Source: Deltaproteobacteria bacterium
GTDB taxonomy: Bacteria > Desulfobacterota > Binatia > Binatales > Binataceae
DNA length: 42,444 bases
Reading direction: 5' to 3'
NCBI GenBank assembly: GCA_021780225.1
Contig: JAJXZF010000068.1
Span: 1 to 42,444, forward strand
Within the stretch, counting starts at the first letter, position 1, and every line of letters begins with the position of its first letter. The translations under genes were made by a program, and so were the position numbers. Of the stretch, positions 36,094-42,444 are shown one piece after another. Below the pieces are notes generated by a model. It was not told where the DNA came from and made no database searches. It saw nothing but the letters and a program-made list of their open reading frames with translations.

Positions 36094-37986
36094 ATGGGGA
36101 CGAGCGTTTGGTATGCGGGGAGGTTTCGCCGGAGAGTCCGCGCCGGCGCCGCCTTGGCGGTCGTTTTGGGGTTGATATGCGCATTTCGCCCGGCGGCATT
36201 CGCCGGCGGCGCGGAGGCGCAGCCGGCGAACGGGCTTGCCATCACGGGCGCCAACGCCGATACGTTGCCGCAAAGCTCCGCCGCGACGCCGGAAAACAGC
36301 TGGCTGAGCGGCCTGCACGTGTCGGGCTATCTGAGCCAGACCTTCGGCATGTGGCAGAACCCGTCGAATTTGCGGGGCTTCACCACCAGCCGCAACAGTC
36401 TGGCCACCTCGCGCACGCTGTTGCAGGTTGACGAGAACTATCAATTGAACGACAACAACTCGTTCTTCATGCGCGAATGGTTCGTATACGAGCCGCCCTA
36501 CGCCTTCAACAGCGCGAACGGGCTGGGCATGTACGCCAACGGCTTTTACAACCAGTACAACGTCCGCGACGCCTGGTGGGAGAACAAGACCGGGCCGCTC
36601 ACCACGTACATCGGCAACCAGATCGTGGTGTGGGGCCAGTCGCTGGCCTTCCGCGTCGGCGACGTGATCAATCCGCAGGACACGACCTGGGCGTTCGGCT
36701 TCGCCAATCTCGAACAGTCGCGCATTCCGCAGTGGATGATCCATCCGATTCTGAATCTGCCGGAGTTCGGACCGTTCAGCTCGAATTTTCTCGAAGGCGT
36801 GCTGATACCGCGGCTGCAGCCGATGTGGAACAGTTGCGACTACGCCGACCATCGCTATGACGGCGAGTGCATGAGCAACGCCGGCACCGTGAACAACGGC
36901 TTTCCCGCCGGCGTCGGCTTCGACCCGGCCGGCCGCTTCGGCGCGCATATCGCGTCCACCTACTATTCGCCGATGAACACGGCGGCGATCGGACCTCCGT
37001 TTCCGCCTTTTATTCCGCCCGGACTGCCGATGCAGTTCAGCCGGATAGTCGGTTCGCCGCTGGCGAATCCCTTCTATCTATGCTCGAACTTTATCGGCGC
37101 GCCCTTTCACTTCGGCCGGCAGTTGGGCAGCCGGGTTCCGCCCGGAATGGAGCGGCCGTGCGCGATGGCGGGCAGCGGCCTGCTCGACGCTCTGCCGCAG
37201 TGGGAGATTCCCGCGAGTACCTTCTCGAACATGGACGAGGGCCTGCGCTTCCACACTCTGGTGGGACCGGCGGAGTTGACGGCTTTCTATTACAATAGCT
37301 GGGATCTCTATCCGAACACCTATTGGGTCCAGAACACGAACATGTTCGTCAACAAGTTCGCGCCGATCCAGCAGGTGGGCGTGACCGGCGACATGCCGCT
37401 GCCGGTGCCGGAGGCGCTGTCCGAGTATCTGCCGCTGGTGGGGCGCGCGGAAGCGGTCTACACCAACCATCAGGGCGTCAACACGTGGGACATCGTCGGC
37501 AATCCTTCGGGCGTGCGTTTTACGGACACGCTCAACTGGATGGCCGCGTTGGACATCGACCAGGCCTACGCGCCGTGGCTGACCGCGACCGGCAACCTGT
37601 CGGCCAACGTCGAGGTCAACGACTTCATCACGCTCGACGGCTCCAATTCGATGATGGAGGCGTTCGGACCGTGGACGGGCGGCGCGCTCGAACCCACGGC
37701 GGCCACGAACTATAAGAACAACGTCAGCGCGCTGTTCAACCTCGGCACCTCGTGGCTGTGGGAGGATATCGCGCCGACCTGGACGATGATCTACAACCCG
37801 GCGGGCAACACCTTCCTGCTGTTTCCGTCGCTGGTGCTGAATCCGCCGTGGACCAAGAAGTACTTCGTGAAGCTGCAGGCGATCGAAGTGCTTGGCGGCA
37901 ACCCCTATGCGACCATGGCGGGCGGCATCCTGAAAGGCGAGAGCATGCTGACCGCGCAGCTCCAGTACAACTTCAACCTGCTCTGA
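36094..37986 (+). CDS. DUF1302-type outer-membrane beta-barrel protein, copy 1
   Basis: The 630-aa exported protein has a long signal peptide (VRAGAALAVVLGLICAF, cleavage near AFA/GG), the DUF1302 N-terminal pattern (QTFGMWQNPSNLRGF, NSFFMREWFVYEPPYAFN) and its hallmark NQIVVWGQSLAFRVGDVINP at about 174-193. It ends in TAQLQYNFNLL, as expected of a barrel C-terminal strand. Four cysteines (248, 259, 330, 356), also present in copy 2, could form two loop disulfides. DUF1302 members are thought to be uptake or export channels for hydrophobic or aromatic compounds; here the substrate is unknown. AAGGAGGAG lies 5 nt before the ATG, an ideal ribosome site. It is a tandem paralogue of 38924-40804. 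Confidence 0.88.
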   Translation: MGTSVWYAGRFRRRVRAGAALAVVLGLICAFRPAAFAGGAEAQPANGLAITGANADTLPQSSAATPENSWLSGLHVSGYLSQTFGMWQNPSNLRGFTTSRNSLATSRTLLQVDENYQLNDNNSFFMREWFVYEPPYAFNSANGLGMYANGFYNQYNVRDAWWENKTGPLTTYIGNQIVVWGQSLAFRVGDVINPQDTTWAFGFANLEQSRIPQWMIHPILNLPEFGPFSSNFLEGVLIPRLQPMWNSCDYADHRYDGECMSNAGTVNNGFPAGVGFDPAGRFGAHIASTYYSPMNTAAIGPPFPPFIPPGLPMQFSRIVGSPLANPFYLCSNFIGAPFHFGRQLGSRVPPGMERPCAMAGSGLLDALPQWEIPASTFSNMDEGLRFHTLVGPAELTAFYYNSWDLYPNTYWVQNTNMFVNKFAPIQQVGVTGDMPLPVPEALSEYLPLVGRAEAVYTNHQGVNTWDIVGNPSGVRFTDTLNWMAALDIDQAYAPWLTATGNLSANVEVNDFITLDGSNSMMEAFGPWTGGALEPTAATNYKNNVSALFNLGTSWLWEDIAPTWTMIYNPAGNTFLLFPSLVLNPPWTKKYFVKLQAIEVLGGNPYATMAGGILKGESMLTAQLQYNFNLL

Positions 37987-38000
37987 TCGAGCAACCAGAA

Positions 38001-38029
38001 CGCGGCGGACGCCTCGGGCGTCCGCCGCG
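38001..38029 (+). other. Very stable hairpin after the first DUF1302 gene
   Basis: CGCGGCGGACGC (38001-38012) pairs perfectly with GCGTCCGCCGCG (38018-38029) around CTCGG, 14 nt after the stop. There is no T-run, so it may protect the 3' end or act with Rho rather than terminate alone. The second paralogue has a different hairpin at the same place. Confidence 0.6.
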
Positions 38030-38162
38030 AATCGAATCGAGCGATTCGCCGGGCGCGGCTGAAATCCGGGAGGTGGCAAATCTATCTGAAATAGCCAGTT
38101 AGTATTCGTTTCCCGACTGGGTAAACAAGATTCAAACGCCAATTCCGGGCGCGCATGAAATG

Positions 38163-38344
38163 TTGCCCGGGCCGTGGATCGCCATGCCGAATCCGCGCGT
38201 AGTGCGAGCGGGCCTACCATGCAAACCGCTCGCATCCGGGAGCCAGGCGCCCGCAGACCGCTTTGGCCCCCGAGGTGACCTCCCTCACCGGCGGATAATG
38301 GAGATTTGCCTGAATCTCCCGATGGCGCCGCGGACCCGGGCAAT
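38163..38344 (+). ncRNA. Structured RNA candidate, copy 1
   Basis: This element of about 180 nt is closed by a 15-bp stem: TTGCCCGGG/CCGTGG (38163-38177) with CCGCGG-A-CCCGGGCAA (38328-38343), one bulged A. Inside are TCCGC/GCGGA pairing, a 10-bp hairpin (GTGCGAGCGG/CCGCTCGCAT), a 52-nt core (38244-38295) identical to copy 2 and displaying GGTGA-CCTCCC-TCACC, and a 3' hairpin GGAGATT/AATCTCC with loop TGCCTG. G-U wobbles favour the plus strand. It lies 177 nt after the first DUF1302 gene. It could be a stand-alone small RNA, a 3'-UTR element of copy 1 or a far-upstream element of copy 2. No known family was recognised. Confidence 0.65.
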
Positions 38345-38632
38345 CACGTCCCTTGCGCGTGGCTGACCCGTCCAGCGCGAACGCCCGCGGCATTTCGACA
38401 ACCTGCATCGCCGGATTTTACTGGCCGCAATCGTCTTTCAGTCAAAAGAATCGTTTTTATCAATAAATTCGACCGAATCTTTCCACAGGCGGAAGAATCG
38501 CTCGCTTCAGCGCTCATTTGATGCGGCGTATTTAGCCTTAAATTAAACAATAGATGTAATTGAATATAATTACATGTTTTATTTATCTATTTATAAAAAA
38601 TTGTGTTAAATTTGCGCTGTCCGGCCTAAAAA

Positions 38633-38668
38633 TCGCGTCCGCCATCTCATGGACGCGAATTTTTTTTT
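38633..38668. terminator. Intrinsic terminator, likely bidirectional
   Basis: TCGCGTCC (38633-38640) pairs with GGACGCGA (38651-38658). AAAAA precedes the stem and a run of nine T residues follows, so it could stop transcripts from both directions. In the plus direction it would end the transcript carrying the structured RNA. Confidence 0.9.
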
Positions 38669-38775
38669 ATTGAACCGGCCCGCGTCTATTGAATTCCTCG
38701 TTTTGTTTCAGTAGAGACTGCTCCGTAGTTTCCTGTTTGCGTAGTACCCCCCGCCTCGAAACATGAGGTCGGGGA

Positions 38776-38857
38776 GGCGCCGGAGCTGCCAGCATTGGAG
38801 CGCCGGCGCGAAGCCAGTCCGGTTTTCTGGGGGTTAGCGGCCGGACCGGTCTTTTTT
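38776..38857 (+). promoter_or_regulatory. Structured leader with terminator-like hairpin before the second DUF1302 gene
   Basis: GGCGCCGG and CCGGCGC form one stem (about 38776-38808). A second stem pairs GTCCGG (38817-38822) with CCGGAC (38841-38846), followed shortly by CTTTTTT. This could be an attenuator about 70 nt before the ATG. The first paralogue has no clear equivalent. Confidence 0.4.
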
Positions 38858-38923
38858 CGCATGAGTATTTTCGCCGCGCCGTCGGGGGATGGCGGGGATG
38901 AGTTAGCTCGAAGGAGGAGACTA

Positions 38924-40804
38924 ATGGGGACTAGCGTTTCGGGTTCCGGCACGTTCCGGGGAGGAGGGAGAGCCGGAGCGGCCCTTTTGCTGGCTCTTGG
39001 GCTGATTCTGGCGGTGGGCGCGTCCGCGTCCGCCGGCGACGTTGCGGCGCAGCCTTCAGGCGGGCTCAGCGTCACGGGAGCGTCGCTCGACGCTTTACCG
39101 CAAACATCCAGCGCCTCGGCTGAGAACAGTTGGCTGAGCGGCCTGCACGTGTCGGGCTATCTGAGCCAGACCTTCGGCATGTGGCAGAACCCGTCGAATT
39201 TGCGGGGCTTCACCACCAGCCGCAACAATCTTGCGACCTCGCGCACGCTGTTGCAGGTTGACGAAAACTACCGCTTGAACGAGGACAACTCGTTCTTCAT
39301 GCGCGAGTGGTTCGTGTACGAGCCGCCCTACGCCTTCAACAGCGCGAACGGGATGGGCATGTACGCCAATGATTTCTACAATCAGTACAACGTTCGCGAC
39401 GCGTGGTGGGAGAACAAGACCGGGCCGCTGACCACCTACGTTGGCAACCAGATCGTGGTGTGGGGCCAGTCGCTGGCCTTCCGCGTCGGCGACGTGATCA
39501 ATCCGCAGGACACGACCTGGGCGTTCGGCTTCGCCAATCTCGAACAGTCGCGCATTCCGCAGTGGATGATCCATCCGATTCTGAATCTGCCGGAATTCGG
39601 AGCGTTCAGCTCGAACTTTCTTGAAGGCGTGCTGATACCGCGGCTGCAGCCGATGTGGAACAGCTGCGGTTACTTCGACCATCGCTATGACGGCGAGTGC
39701 ATGAGCAACGCCGGCAGCGTGAACAACGGCTTCCCCGCCGGTCTTGGCTTCGATCCGTCCGGCCGCTTCGGCGCTCACGTTGGAGTGAATCGATATTATC
39801 CGATGAACACGGCGGCGATCGGACCTCCGTTTCCGCCTTTTATTCCGCCCGGACTGCCGATGCAGTTCAGCCGGCTGATTCCGCAGCCGCTGTCGAATCC
39901 ATTCTATCTATGCTCGAACTTTATCAGCGCGTTCGGCCGGCAAGCTGGAAGCCAGGTTCCGCCCGGAATGACGCGGCCGTGCGCTCACGTGCCCGGTTCG
40001 GGTTTGCTTCTCAGCGGCAATCCTTGGGAGATTCCCGCGACCACCTTCTCGAACATGGAGGAGGGCCTGCGCATCCATACGCTGGTCGGACCGGCGGAGT
40101 TGACGGCTTTCTATTACAATACCTGGAATCTCTATCCGAACGTCTTTTGGGTGCAAGGCACGAATCAGTTCGCGTTCAGGTTTGATCCGATCCAGCAGGT
40201 GGGCGTGACCGGCGACATGCCGCTGCCGGTACCGTCGGCGGTGGCGGAGTATCTGCCGCTGGTGGGGCGCGCGGAGGCGGTATACGCCAACCATGAGCCA
40301 GTCGCCACTTGGGACGTCATCGGCAATCCGTCGGGGGTGCGCTATACGGACACTCTGAACTGGATGGCCGCCGTGGACGTGGATCAAGCCTACGCTCCGT
40401 GGCTGACCGCGACCGGCAACCTGTCGGCGAACGTCGAGGTTGAGGATTTAATCACGCTCGACGGCGCGAACTCGATGTTTGAAGCGTTCGGACCGTGGAC
40501 GGGTGGCGGGTCTGAACCTGAACCGAACATCAAGAACAACGTCAGCACGCTGTTCAATATCGGCACCTCGTGGTTGTGGGAGGATGTCGCTCCGACCTGG
40601 ACGATGGTGTTCAGCCCGAAGGGCCGCACCTTCCTGCTGTTTCCGTCGGTGGTGCTGAATCCGCCGTGGACCAAGAAGTACTTCCTGAAGCTGCAGGCGA
40701 TCGAAGTGCTTGGCGGCGACATGGCATATACGCAGGGCGGCGGCATCTTGAAAGGCCAGAGCCTGCTGACCGCGCAATTGCAGTACAACTTCAACCTGCT
40801 GTGA
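38924..40804 (+). CDS. DUF1302-type outer-membrane beta-barrel protein, copy 2
   Basis: The 626-aa protein is a close tandem paralogue of the one at 36094, with the same DUF1302 motifs (NQIVVWGQSLAFRVGDVINP), the four cysteines and the C-terminal TAQLQYNFNLL. Long stretches are identical even at third codon positions, while the signal peptide, the region near residues 285-300 and the loop around the third and fourth cysteines (FGRQAGSQVPPGMTRPC in place of a longer version) have diverged. It should be an outer-membrane channel of similar but perhaps not identical selectivity. AAGGAGGAG lies 4 nt before ATG 38924. An in-frame start at 38795 would place the leader hairpin in the coding region and is unlikely. 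Confidence 0.88.
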   Translation: MGTSVSGSGTFRGGGRAGAALLLALGLILAVGASASAGDVAAQPSGGLSVTGASLDALPQTSSASAENSWLSGLHVSGYLSQTFGMWQNPSNLRGFTTSRNNLATSRTLLQVDENYRLNEDNSFFMREWFVYEPPYAFNSANGMGMYANDFYNQYNVRDAWWENKTGPLTTYVGNQIVVWGQSLAFRVGDVINPQDTTWAFGFANLEQSRIPQWMIHPILNLPEFGAFSSNFLEGVLIPRLQPMWNSCGYFDHRYDGECMSNAGSVNNGFPAGLGFDPSGRFGAHVGVNRYYPMNTAAIGPPFPPFIPPGLPMQFSRLIPQPLSNPFYLCSNFISAFGRQAGSQVPPGMTRPCAHVPGSGLLLSGNPWEIPATTFSNMEEGLRIHTLVGPAELTAFYYNTWNLYPNVFWVQGTNQFAFRFDPIQQVGVTGDMPLPVPSAVAEYLPLVGRAEAVYANHEPVATWDVIGNPSGVRYTDTLNWMAAVDVDQAYAPWLTATGNLSANVEVEDLITLDGANSMFEAFGPWTGGGSEPEPNIKNNVSTLFNIGTSWLWEDVAPTWTMVFSPKGRTFLLFPSVVLNPPWTKKYFLKLQAIEVLGGDMAYTQGGGILKGQSLLTAQLQYNFNLL

Positions 40805-40827
40805 GGCACTGAATCGGCCGGTGACGA

Positions 40828-40851
40828 TGCGGGCGCCATTTGGCGCTCGCA
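40828..40851 (+). other. Stable hairpin after the second DUF1302 gene
   Basis: TGCGGGCGCC (40828-40837) pairs with GGCGCTCGCA (40842-40851) around ATTT with one G-U pair, 24 nt after the stop. No T-run follows. It mirrors the hairpin after the first paralogue in position but not in sequence. Confidence 0.55.
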
Positions 40852-40982
40852 CGTCGCCAAAGCCCTTGCTCGCGAACGTGTCGATGATTTAGCCGCCTGG
40901 AGAATGTGAATGGACGGGGCAGATATCGAAGCGGCGGACGTCACCGGTAATCGTTCGCGACGTTTTCCAGACTTTGAGCAGT

Positions 40983-41159
40983 CGCCCGGACCGCGGAATG
41001 CCAAGCCGATCCGCACCGACGCATTTCGGCCTCCATGCGGACTGGATGCGAAGGGGTCAGGCGCCCGCAGACCGCTTTGGCCCCCGAGGTGACCTCCCTC
41101 ACCGGCGGACGGTCGGGGATTTGCCTGAATCCTCGATGGCGCCCGCGGTCCCGGGCGAA
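40983..41159 (+). ncRNA. Structured RNA candidate, copy 2
   Basis: This is the counterpart of 38163-38344, 178 nt after the second DUF1302 gene. The closing stem is CGCCCGG-ACCGCGG (40983-40996) with CCGCGGT-C-CCGGGCG (41143-41157), again with one bulge on the 3' side. The 52-nt core (41058-41109) is identical. The 3' hairpin is CGGGGATT/AATCCTCG, keeping its pairing and the TGCCTG loop despite base changes. The 5' hairpin differs in sequence but keeps GGCCTCCATGC in place of GGCCTACCATGC. No same-strand gene lies downstream in the window, which argues against a simple cis-acting riboswitch. Confidence 0.65.
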
Positions 41160-41184
41160 TTTCCGGGAATTAATTTGCACTAAA

Positions 41185-41214
41185 ACGGCCGCGATCGAAT
41201 TCGATCGCGGCCGT
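41185..41214. terminator. 30-bp perfect palindrome, probable hisG terminator
   Basis: ACGGCCGCGATCGA and its complement form an uninterrupted 30-bp inverted repeat. On the minus strand it is followed by TTTTAG, suiting termination of hisG transcripts that cross the MITE. On the plus strand only CACTTTCG follows, so it may also end the RNA transcript, less efficiently. Confidence 0.7.
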
Positions 41215-41243
41215 CACTTTCGTCTGACTGGCAGAAGAATTTA

Positions 41244-41445
41244 GTGTGGCGTCCCGCAAATAAGTTTGCACTCCGCGTCCATCTTGCGCTCGGCGTGGAT
41301 GCCCGGATCAAGTCCGGGCATGATCAGCTCTGTTCGTCATTGCCGGGCCCAGACCCGGCAATTCACCCTTGGTCGCCCCGCAGTGAGCGACCTGCGCGCC
41401 GAGCTGATAAAGCATCAGATGGAAGTTATTTGCGGGACACCACAT
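41244..41445. repeat. MITE-like repeat, copy B
   Basis: The repeat is about 202 bp with imperfect terminal inverted repeats (GTGTGGCGTCCCGCAAATAA left; complement of ATGTGGTGTCCCGCAAATAA right). TA flanks both ends (41242-41243 and 41446-41447), as left by IS630/mariner-type transposition. Internal hairpins include ATGCCCGGA/TCCGGGCAT and ATTGCCGGG/CCCGGCAAT. It is the reverse-oriented relative of 5518-5722 and lies 9 bp beyond the hisG stop. Confidence 0.85.
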
Positions 41446-41454
41446 TAGAAGGAT

Positions 41455-42357
41455 TCAGATAATCTTGTTGAGCGCGAATTCGACGATTCCGACCGCGCCC
41501 GCTTCGAGCAGCTTGGGAAACAGTTCGCGCACCGTATGCTCGCTGATAACCGTCTCCACGGCGAGCCATTCTTTGCCCTTGAGGGCGGGACTTGGATAGA
41601 GCTGCGAAATCGTCGGCGCGGTAATCGACGGCAGCAAATTTATCACCGCTTCGAGATTTTCGCGCGCGACGTTCATTTTGATGCCGACGCGGCTCTCGGC
41701 GTCGAGCGCACCCTTCATCAGGACGCCGATCTGCCGCACCTTCTCGCGCTTCCACGGATCGTCCCAAGCGGCAGGATTGGCGACCAGTACGGGCGTCGAA
41801 GTCAGCAACTCCTCGACGATGCGCAGACCGTTGGCGCGGAGCGACGAACCGGTTTCCGTCACTTCGACGACCGCGTCGACCAGCCCATCGGCGGCTTTGG
41901 CTTCGGTGACGCCCCATGAAAATTCAACTTCTACTTTAACTTTGCGCTCGGCGAAGATGCGCCGCGTGAAAGCGACCATTTCGGTGGCGACCCGCTTGCC
42001 GGCCAAGTCCTCGAGCCGCTTGACCGGGGAATTTTCGGGCACGCACAGCACCCACCGGGTCGGCTGGAGCGAAACCTTGGAATAAATAAAGCTTTCGATC
42101 TGCACGAGATCGACGCCGTTTTCGACGATCCAGTCGCTGCCCGTGATGCCGGCGTCGAGCGTGCCGTCGGCGATATAACGGGGCATCTCCTGCGGCCGCA
42201 GCAGCCGGCAACTGAGGCTTGGATCGTCCACCCGCGGGATGTAAGAGCGGTCGCCGACGGCGATACGCCATCCGGATTTGCGCAATAATTCAAGGGTCTG
42301 CGCTTCGAGGCTGCCCTTGGGGATGCCAAACTTGAGAATCTTGCTGTTGGTCGTCAT
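41455..42357 (-). CDS. hisG: ATP phosphoribosyltransferase, long form
   Basis: The 300-aa enzyme has the HisG start (LKFGIPKGSLEAQTLELL), GTLDAGITGSDWIVENGVDL, the PRPP-binding DAVVEVTETGSSLRANGL, and a C-terminal ACT-like regulatory domain of about 80 residues (VGIKMNVARENLEAVINLLP to VGIVEFALNKII). The long form works without HisZ and is normally feedback-inhibited by histidine. It catalyses the first step of histidine synthesis. ATG 42357 is chosen over an in-frame TTG at 42381; no strong ribosome site is visible. No other his gene is in the window. Confidence 0.95.
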   Translation of the reverse strand: MTTNSKILKFGIPKGSLEAQTLELLRKSGWRIAVGDRSYIPRVDDPSLSCRLLRPQEMPRYIADGTLDAGITGSDWIVENGVDLVQIESFIYSKVSLQPTRWVLCVPENSPVKRLEDLAGKRVATEMVAFTRRIFAERKVKVEVEFSWGVTEAKAADGLVDAVVEVTETGSSLRANGLRIVEELLTSTPVLVANPAAWDDPWKREKVRQIGVLMKGALDAESRVGIKMNVARENLEAVINLLPSITAPTISQLYPSPALKGKEWLAVETVISEHTVRELFPKLLEAGAVGIVEFALNKII

Positions 42358-42444
42358 TTGCAATTCATTTTGCGCCCGCAAGCGTGGGCCGCGGCGGCAG
42401 GCGAATCGTTCGCGCGCGGTTGGCCAAATGGCTGGCCGGCGTTA

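Follow-up and report, generated by a model that had tools for sequence, protein, structure and literature searches.

In Vibrio cholerae, the small RNAs (sRNAs) OppZ and CarZ are described as deriving from the 3' untranslated regions (3' UTRs) of mRNAs and as autoregulatory (PMC7398697), OppZ being a 52-nucleotide (nt) RNA that RNase E produces and that depends on Hfq (PMC9438474). In Bacillus subtilis, the site at which the sRNAs RoxS and FsrA contact their targets is reported to be an unpaired C-rich stretch (PMC8216469), and PmaR of Agrobacterium combines a C-rich loop with a long stem, the loop being described as not anti-Shine-Dalgarno and as mostly activating (PMC6234868). Here we analyze a 42,444-nt stretch of DNA from the Binataceae (hereafter the window; contig JAJXZF010000068.1 of assembly GCA_021780225.1), which is one of 118 contigs in a 3.80-Mb genome. 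At the right end of this contig lie two tandem genes encoding DUF1302 proteins of outer-membrane type, and about 175 nt after each of them stands one copy of a structured element whose most likely identity is a 3'-UTR RNA that is new and restricted to this lineage.

The initial annotation had placed two elements of about 180 nt in this region, with a shared identical core of 52 nt and a long closing stem carrying one 3'-side bulge. Both elements are present and their boundaries were refined as follows, where bit scores are from covariance models R1 and R2, for which both copies were among the building sequences, and z compares the predicted fold with dinucleotide shuffles:

38162..38347, plus strand: element copy W1, structured RNA of 186 nt (R1 164 bits, R2 148.9 bits, fold z -4.9)
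40981..41162, plus strand: element copy W2, structured RNA of 182 nt (R1 196.3 bits, R2 183 bits, fold z -3.1)

For each copy, none of 200 shuffles was equally stable, and the predicted fold energies with short flanks are -100.4 kcal/mol (W1) and -95.6 kcal/mol (W2). The exact block shared by the two copies measures 52 nt and lies within a 57-nt block of 96% identity, and the bulged closing stem is predicted in both. Across all copies identified (see below), the element is 164-186 nt long and consists of a closing stem, two inner stems and four hairpins, for which we use helix names of our own: the closing stem P1, with 15 pairs and the 3'-side bulge, is accompanied by P2 and by the hairpins P4, P5, P6 and P7, the last of which was not seen in the second copy of genome G010. 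There is also an inner stem of about five pairs that is absent from the covariance models; in a tally of 11 of the 12 copies (the second G010 copy omitted), eight rows form 5/5 of these pairs and three rows form 4, 3 and 2, respectively; the row with the lowest tally (L028) was out of register, and its arms GUCG/CGAC pair by eye.

Compensatory changes support this structure. In a model-fitted alignment of the 12 copies, 94.8% of 621 cells are paired and two-sided changes occur at 26 of 53 pairs, compared to a mean of 8.8 after shuffling (0/500 shuffles reach 26), while sliding the partner columns by one to three positions leaves only 2-7 such pairs. When the inferred substitutions were instead replayed along a tree, the mean was 5.8 and the maximum 15, against an observed value of 25 (0/500; ties were broken differently here than in the shuffle test), and a rate-weighted version of this null gave a mean of 5.2 and a maximum of 13. 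Both the shuffle and the tree tests use the structure-fitted alignment and hence lean towards the structure. With an unfitted alignment (plain MAFFT, nine copies, RNAalifold structure), eight two-sided pairs were observed compared to a mean of 4.6, with 12/500 shuffles reaching eight, and 1-4 were left after sliding the partners. Taken together, these sequence comparisons strongly indicate that compensatory changes exceed the phylogenetic expectation on the fitted alignment and are present, but weaker, on the unfitted one.

Read on the plus strand, the alignment holds 50 G-U cells and 11 A-C cells, and the RNA is therefore assigned to the plus strand, the same strand as the DUF1302 genes. This count and the compensatory changes in relatives agree with the orientation first suggested for the two window copies, and the comparisons support the identification of the element as a conserved plus-strand structured RNA. 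A coding role was rejected, as the lengths of 164-186 nt do not vary in multiples of three and neither G003b nor the second G010 copy has an open frame on either strand. We also rejected a kissing interaction between the P7 loop and the 5' side of P5, which is possible in W2 and, by eye, is not kept in G005, G006 or G002.

Between W1 and W2 themselves, the model-fitted alignment shows two-sided changes with pairing kept at 6 of 53 pairs (four belong to hairpin P4, and the 3' hairpin and the base of P1 have one each), one-sided changes at four, and pairs that are unpaired in one copy at five, four of them in P2. Of the compensatory arms proposed initially, the 3' hairpin does contain a two-sided change (A-U versus G-C), whereas the change in upper P1 turned out to be one-sided (U-G versus C-G). 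The identity over 52 nt probably reflects more than conservation, with local gene conversion as a probable contributor. Over the 51 columns of the core, W1 and W2 are the same throughout, and W1 and G003b, its flank match, differ at six; over the 83 columns of the 5' part, W1 has 32 differences from W2 and six from G003b. This change of closest match, from G003b in the 5' part to W2 in the core, suggests conversion of the core; such conversion is unproven because the G003b core is also the most divergent among the window and G003 copies.

The element extends beyond the window's genome. A BLAST search with W2 across 96 genomes located it in six of the seven genomes of the window's genus, the window genome included, and covariance model R1, built from nine copies, extended the set to two other genera of the same family, represented by G011 (80.7 bits) and G010 (47 bits). 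The second G010 copy came from scans around other DUF1302 genes (46.4 bits with R2) and was retrieved again by a genome-wide search with R3 (88.7 bits, R3 itself having been built including that copy). In total, the covariance models yield 12 copies in eight genomes and three genera of a single family (Ca. Binataceae), with the fold kept through compensatory changes. A covariance search of the 148 class genomes under strict filters found no copy in the remaining 140; the same search also missed the second G010 copy. Further DUF1302 loci (15 + 20 + 5, the known G010 locus being one of the five) were scanned with filters off, which added a single copy; in the set of 15, little or no 3' flank is available for L067 and L071-L073. 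A degenerate-pattern search of a genome-contig collection returned seven matches, all of which proved by exact comparison of pieces to be already known loci, and exact-pattern searches of genome-contig and viral-contig collections returned no further copies. Several weak matches were rejected: R1 matches in G009 and G040 (E 0.25-0.26) are contained in protein-coding frames, BLAST matches in G062, G042 and G008 are chance matches of 20-30 nt that lack the rest of the element, and a 24.9-bit match 3' of a DUF1302 gene in G007 comes from a 49-nt palindrome, which is hit on either strand.

As first noted, the element could not be matched to a known family: a cmscan search of the whole window against Rfam 15 gave zero matches at gathering thresholds, and relaxing E up to 10 gave nothing overlapping W1 or W2. 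Among the matches listed in a literature search, none describes the element, which is not proof of absence, and a term search of two surveys (PMC8632094 and PMC11109978) found mention of neither Binatota nor DUF1302. By these Rfam and literature searches the element is a new RNA family, of a known general kind (3'-UTR structured RNA). It stands as a well-supported family from an uncultured lineage that links a large conserved fold to DUF1302 genes.

The position of the element is consistent: in all ten copies whose contig includes the upstream gene, that gene is a same-strand DUF1302 gene, and the other two copies (G005 and G001b) are at contig ends. The downstream neighbour varies, being hisG behind W2, G003a, G002 and G005, a second DUF1302 gene behind W1 and G003b, and, as named by eye from translations, a coaBC-like gene in G011 and a P450 gene in G010. 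In the window, the genes and terminator-like features around the two copies are:

36094..37986, plus strand: DUF1302 (PF06980) gene 1, 5' of W1 (Pfam E 1.5e-6)
38001..38029, plus strand: terminator-like stem of 13 bp following gene 1, with no plus-strand T-run (from sequence; in the terminator scan this site is listed as terminator-like on the minus strand only)
38633..38667, plus strand: intrinsic-terminator-like site 3' of W1 (terminator scan)
38924..40804, plus strand: DUF1302 (PF06980) gene 2, 5' of W2 (Pfam E 3e-7)
41185..41214, plus strand: 13-bp stem-loop after W2, without a T-run (sequence and comparison)
41455..42381, minus strand: hisG, convergent neighbour (PF01634 E 1.5e-40)

A terminator-like stem with a T-run within 110 nt of the stop codon was found behind none of the ten element-bearing DUF1302 genes and behind 14 of 35 element-free ones. 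Among the first element-free genes examined, mostly closer paralogues, the same rule was satisfied by 8 of 11, and the element-free paralogue on contig C17 has a stem similar to that at 38001-38029 but with a T-run. As the rows are related, no P value is claimed for this contrast, which supports read-through from the DUF1302 gene and is not proof that the element replaces a terminator. At the place matching the stem-loop after W2, the stems in G001a, G005 and G006 do carry T-runs.

The element is also better preserved than the sequence leading up to it. Identities for gene, 5' spacer and element are 78, 41 (43 for shuffled spacer) and 89% for W2/G001a, 83, 74 and 91% for W2/G003a, 86, 68 and 89% for W1/G003b, and 86, 58 and 81% for W1/W2, so that the element is more identical than its own 5' spacer in 4/4 pairs compared.

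Within the fold, two hairpin loops stand out:

38251..38257, plus strand: conserved P5 hairpin loop CCGCAGA of W1 (motif and predicted unpaired probability)
41065..41071, plus strand: conserved P5 hairpin loop CCGCAGA of W2 (mean unpaired probability 0.86)
38279..38284, plus strand: C-rich P6 hairpin loop CCUCCC of W1, candidate anti-Shine-Dalgarno seed (mean unpaired probability 0.98)
41093..41098, plus strand: C-rich P6 hairpin loop CCUCCC of W2 (mean unpaired probability 0.90)

The P5 motif CCGCA[GU]A is found in 11 of the 12 copies, with mean unpaired probabilities of 0.86-0.96. In P6, a C-rich loop could be matched in every copy, as CCUCCC in seven copies, UCUCCC in two and CCUCCU, CACUCC and CCUUCC once each, with a predicted mean unpaired probability of at least 0.74 in ten of them, and two of the five pairs of its stem show two-sided changes. 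This loop is complementary to GGAG-type Shine-Dalgarno sites such as AAGGAGGAG, which precedes both DUF1302 genes of the window. A search for Hfq (PF17209) was negative in all 24 class genomes examined, the window's own included, while the same profile was positive in 5 of 14 control genomes.

On this basis we propose, at a probability of roughly one in three, that the element is a 3'-UTR RNA of DUF1302 genes that acts through its P6 loop on Shine-Dalgarno sites, giving feedback on an outer-membrane protein. The DUF1302 transcript would run on into the element and carry it as its 3' UTR, and the element would either stay attached to the mRNA or be cut free as a stable RNA. The P6 hairpin would then present a mostly open C-rich loop able to pair with purine-rich Shine-Dalgarno sequences, the first candidate targets being the DUF1302 mRNAs themselves, and such pairing would repress translation and so provide feedback control. 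Because no Hfq was detected in the lineage, the rigid closing stem is proposed to supply the stability that Hfq gives elsewhere. If the loop does act on Shine-Dalgarno sites, the element would represent a route for RNA control of outer-membrane proteins without detectable Hfq; the wider claim, that regulatory RNAs of this kind form a new class, Hfq-free and self-stabilised, in the 3' ends of porin-like mRNAs with feedback on outer-membrane protein synthesis via an anti-Shine-Dalgarno loop, is doubtful at present.

Several observations weigh against the proposed feedback RNA. GGAGG lies ahead of a possible start codon in 9/9 further DUF1302 leaders, seven of them from element-free genes, and therefore the P6 match cannot single out a target, nor could co-variation between loop and leader decide on autoregulation. 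The P6 loop itself varies, including CCUUCC in G011 (mean unpaired probability 0.40) and UCUCCC in G005 (0.56). The element does not follow the DUF1302 protein tree (30 rows; seven label changes, 72/500 shuffles as low), is not better kept than the gene between W1 and W2 (81% versus 86%), and is missing from the same-genus genome G004 by both BLAST and a genome-wide R3 search. Terminator-like sites follow only 6 of the 24 element-free genes that are more distantly related, so the absence of a terminator is not peculiar to element-bearing genes. Lastly, a terminator-like site follows the element within 330 nt in 4 of 12 copies, W1 included (the site at 38633), and W2 itself has no T-run after it.

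The element might alternatively be a structure at the mRNA 3' end that blocks 3'-5' exonucleases and stabilises the outer-membrane protein message without any function in trans, a possibility that we regard as the main alternative and as only a little less probable. The very stable closed fold would suit such a guard, as would the contrast between the element-bearing genes and the first element-free paralogues (0/10 versus 8/11 with a terminator-like site just after the stop), and a guard explains the position directly after the gene about as well as a feedback RNA does; yet terminators are present in only 14/35 element-free genes overall, and a plain hairpin would suffice for protection, whereas here two hairpin loops are near-constant while the stems change. 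Two such loops amid changing stems call for a partner, and the near-constancy of P5 and P6 therefore tilts us slightly towards a pairing or binding role. That partner could be a protein or metabolite, the P5 and P6 loops forming a site for a regulator, localisation factor or ligand. The compact branched fold with conserved loops is in keeping with a binding domain, and the second G010 copy retains the P5 loop CCGCA although much of P2 has changed, but no Rfam family matches and a riboswitch downstream of its gene would be an unusual placement, which together leave this explanation unlikely.

We consider it quite unlikely that the element is transcribed independently, as an sRNA gene that has a promoter of its own and is linked to DUF1302 by position alone. 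It does follow the locus rather than the protein tree and is better kept than the 5' spacer in the four pairs compared, as an independent gene might be; however, the 5' spacers of eight aligned copies hold no common motif and no recognisable shared promoter, a simple sigma-70 scan of the window, which covers that promoter type only, found no site just upstream of W1 or W2, and the upstream gene is still DUF1302 in G010 and G011, where the neighbourhoods differ. The copies could also be a mere repeat, a mobile element or the product of a recent duplication, with no function as RNA. The tandem arrangement of two copies and the probable gene conversion of their core would fit this, but the covariation, the strand-biased G-U pairs and the occurrence of copies in three genera, all behind DUF1302 where the upstream gene is present, make it very improbable.

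Some further features of the locus were observed. In the protein tree, the DUF1302 paralogues (36094-40804) are mixed across loci, a pattern suggestive of repeated gene conversion between copies. Ahead of DUF1302 gene 2, the 5' leader (38716-38925) also folds well (z -3.0; 1/200 shuffles as stable) and contains a weak terminator-like site at 38839 as well as a hairpin, CCCCGCCUC-GAAACAU-GAGGUCGGGG, of which G002 has a compensated version instead; this leader is possibly an attenuator. Between W2 and hisG, positions 41242-41447 hold an insertion of about 206 bp that resembles a miniature inverted-repeat transposable element, with 25-nt inverted ends that are 88% complementary. Its end motif (at most one mismatch) occurs 109 times in the genome compared to zero for a reversed control, and in G003 the corresponding spacer is shorter by 206 bp (86 versus 292).

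Compared with described systems, the element resembles 6S RNA in size and closing stem. 6S RNA is about 180 nt long, with a long closing stem in a rod with a central bubble. This identity was rejected, as Rfam gave no match and the element is a branched domain with four hairpins rather than such a rod. Like the motifs from the intergenic surveys (PMC8632094; PMC11109978), it is a covarying, lineage-restricted RNA, but it lies 3' of a gene and not in a 5' leader. With RoxS, FsrA and PmaR it shares a C-rich stretch or loop as candidate contact site, accessible by prediction (0.74 or more in ten copies, against 0.56 and 0.40 in the remaining two), and with PmaR also a long stem; it differs in its fold, in standing behind a protein gene and in having no shown sequence relation. 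The own promoter and intrinsic terminator of such sRNAs are not seen as a consistent feature here, the eight aligned copies having no common upstream motif and a terminator-like site following 4/12 copies. OppZ is a smaller comparator, the element being a branched RNA of about 180 nt from a lineage in which PF17209 detected no Hfq in 24/24 genomes, so that no dependence on Hfq is seen, and pairing here is a proposal. As with OppZ and CarZ, the element would lie at an mRNA 3' end, its position being 3' of a same-strand open reading frame in 10/10 copies with the upstream gene present, and would lower translation by pairing with its own mRNA.

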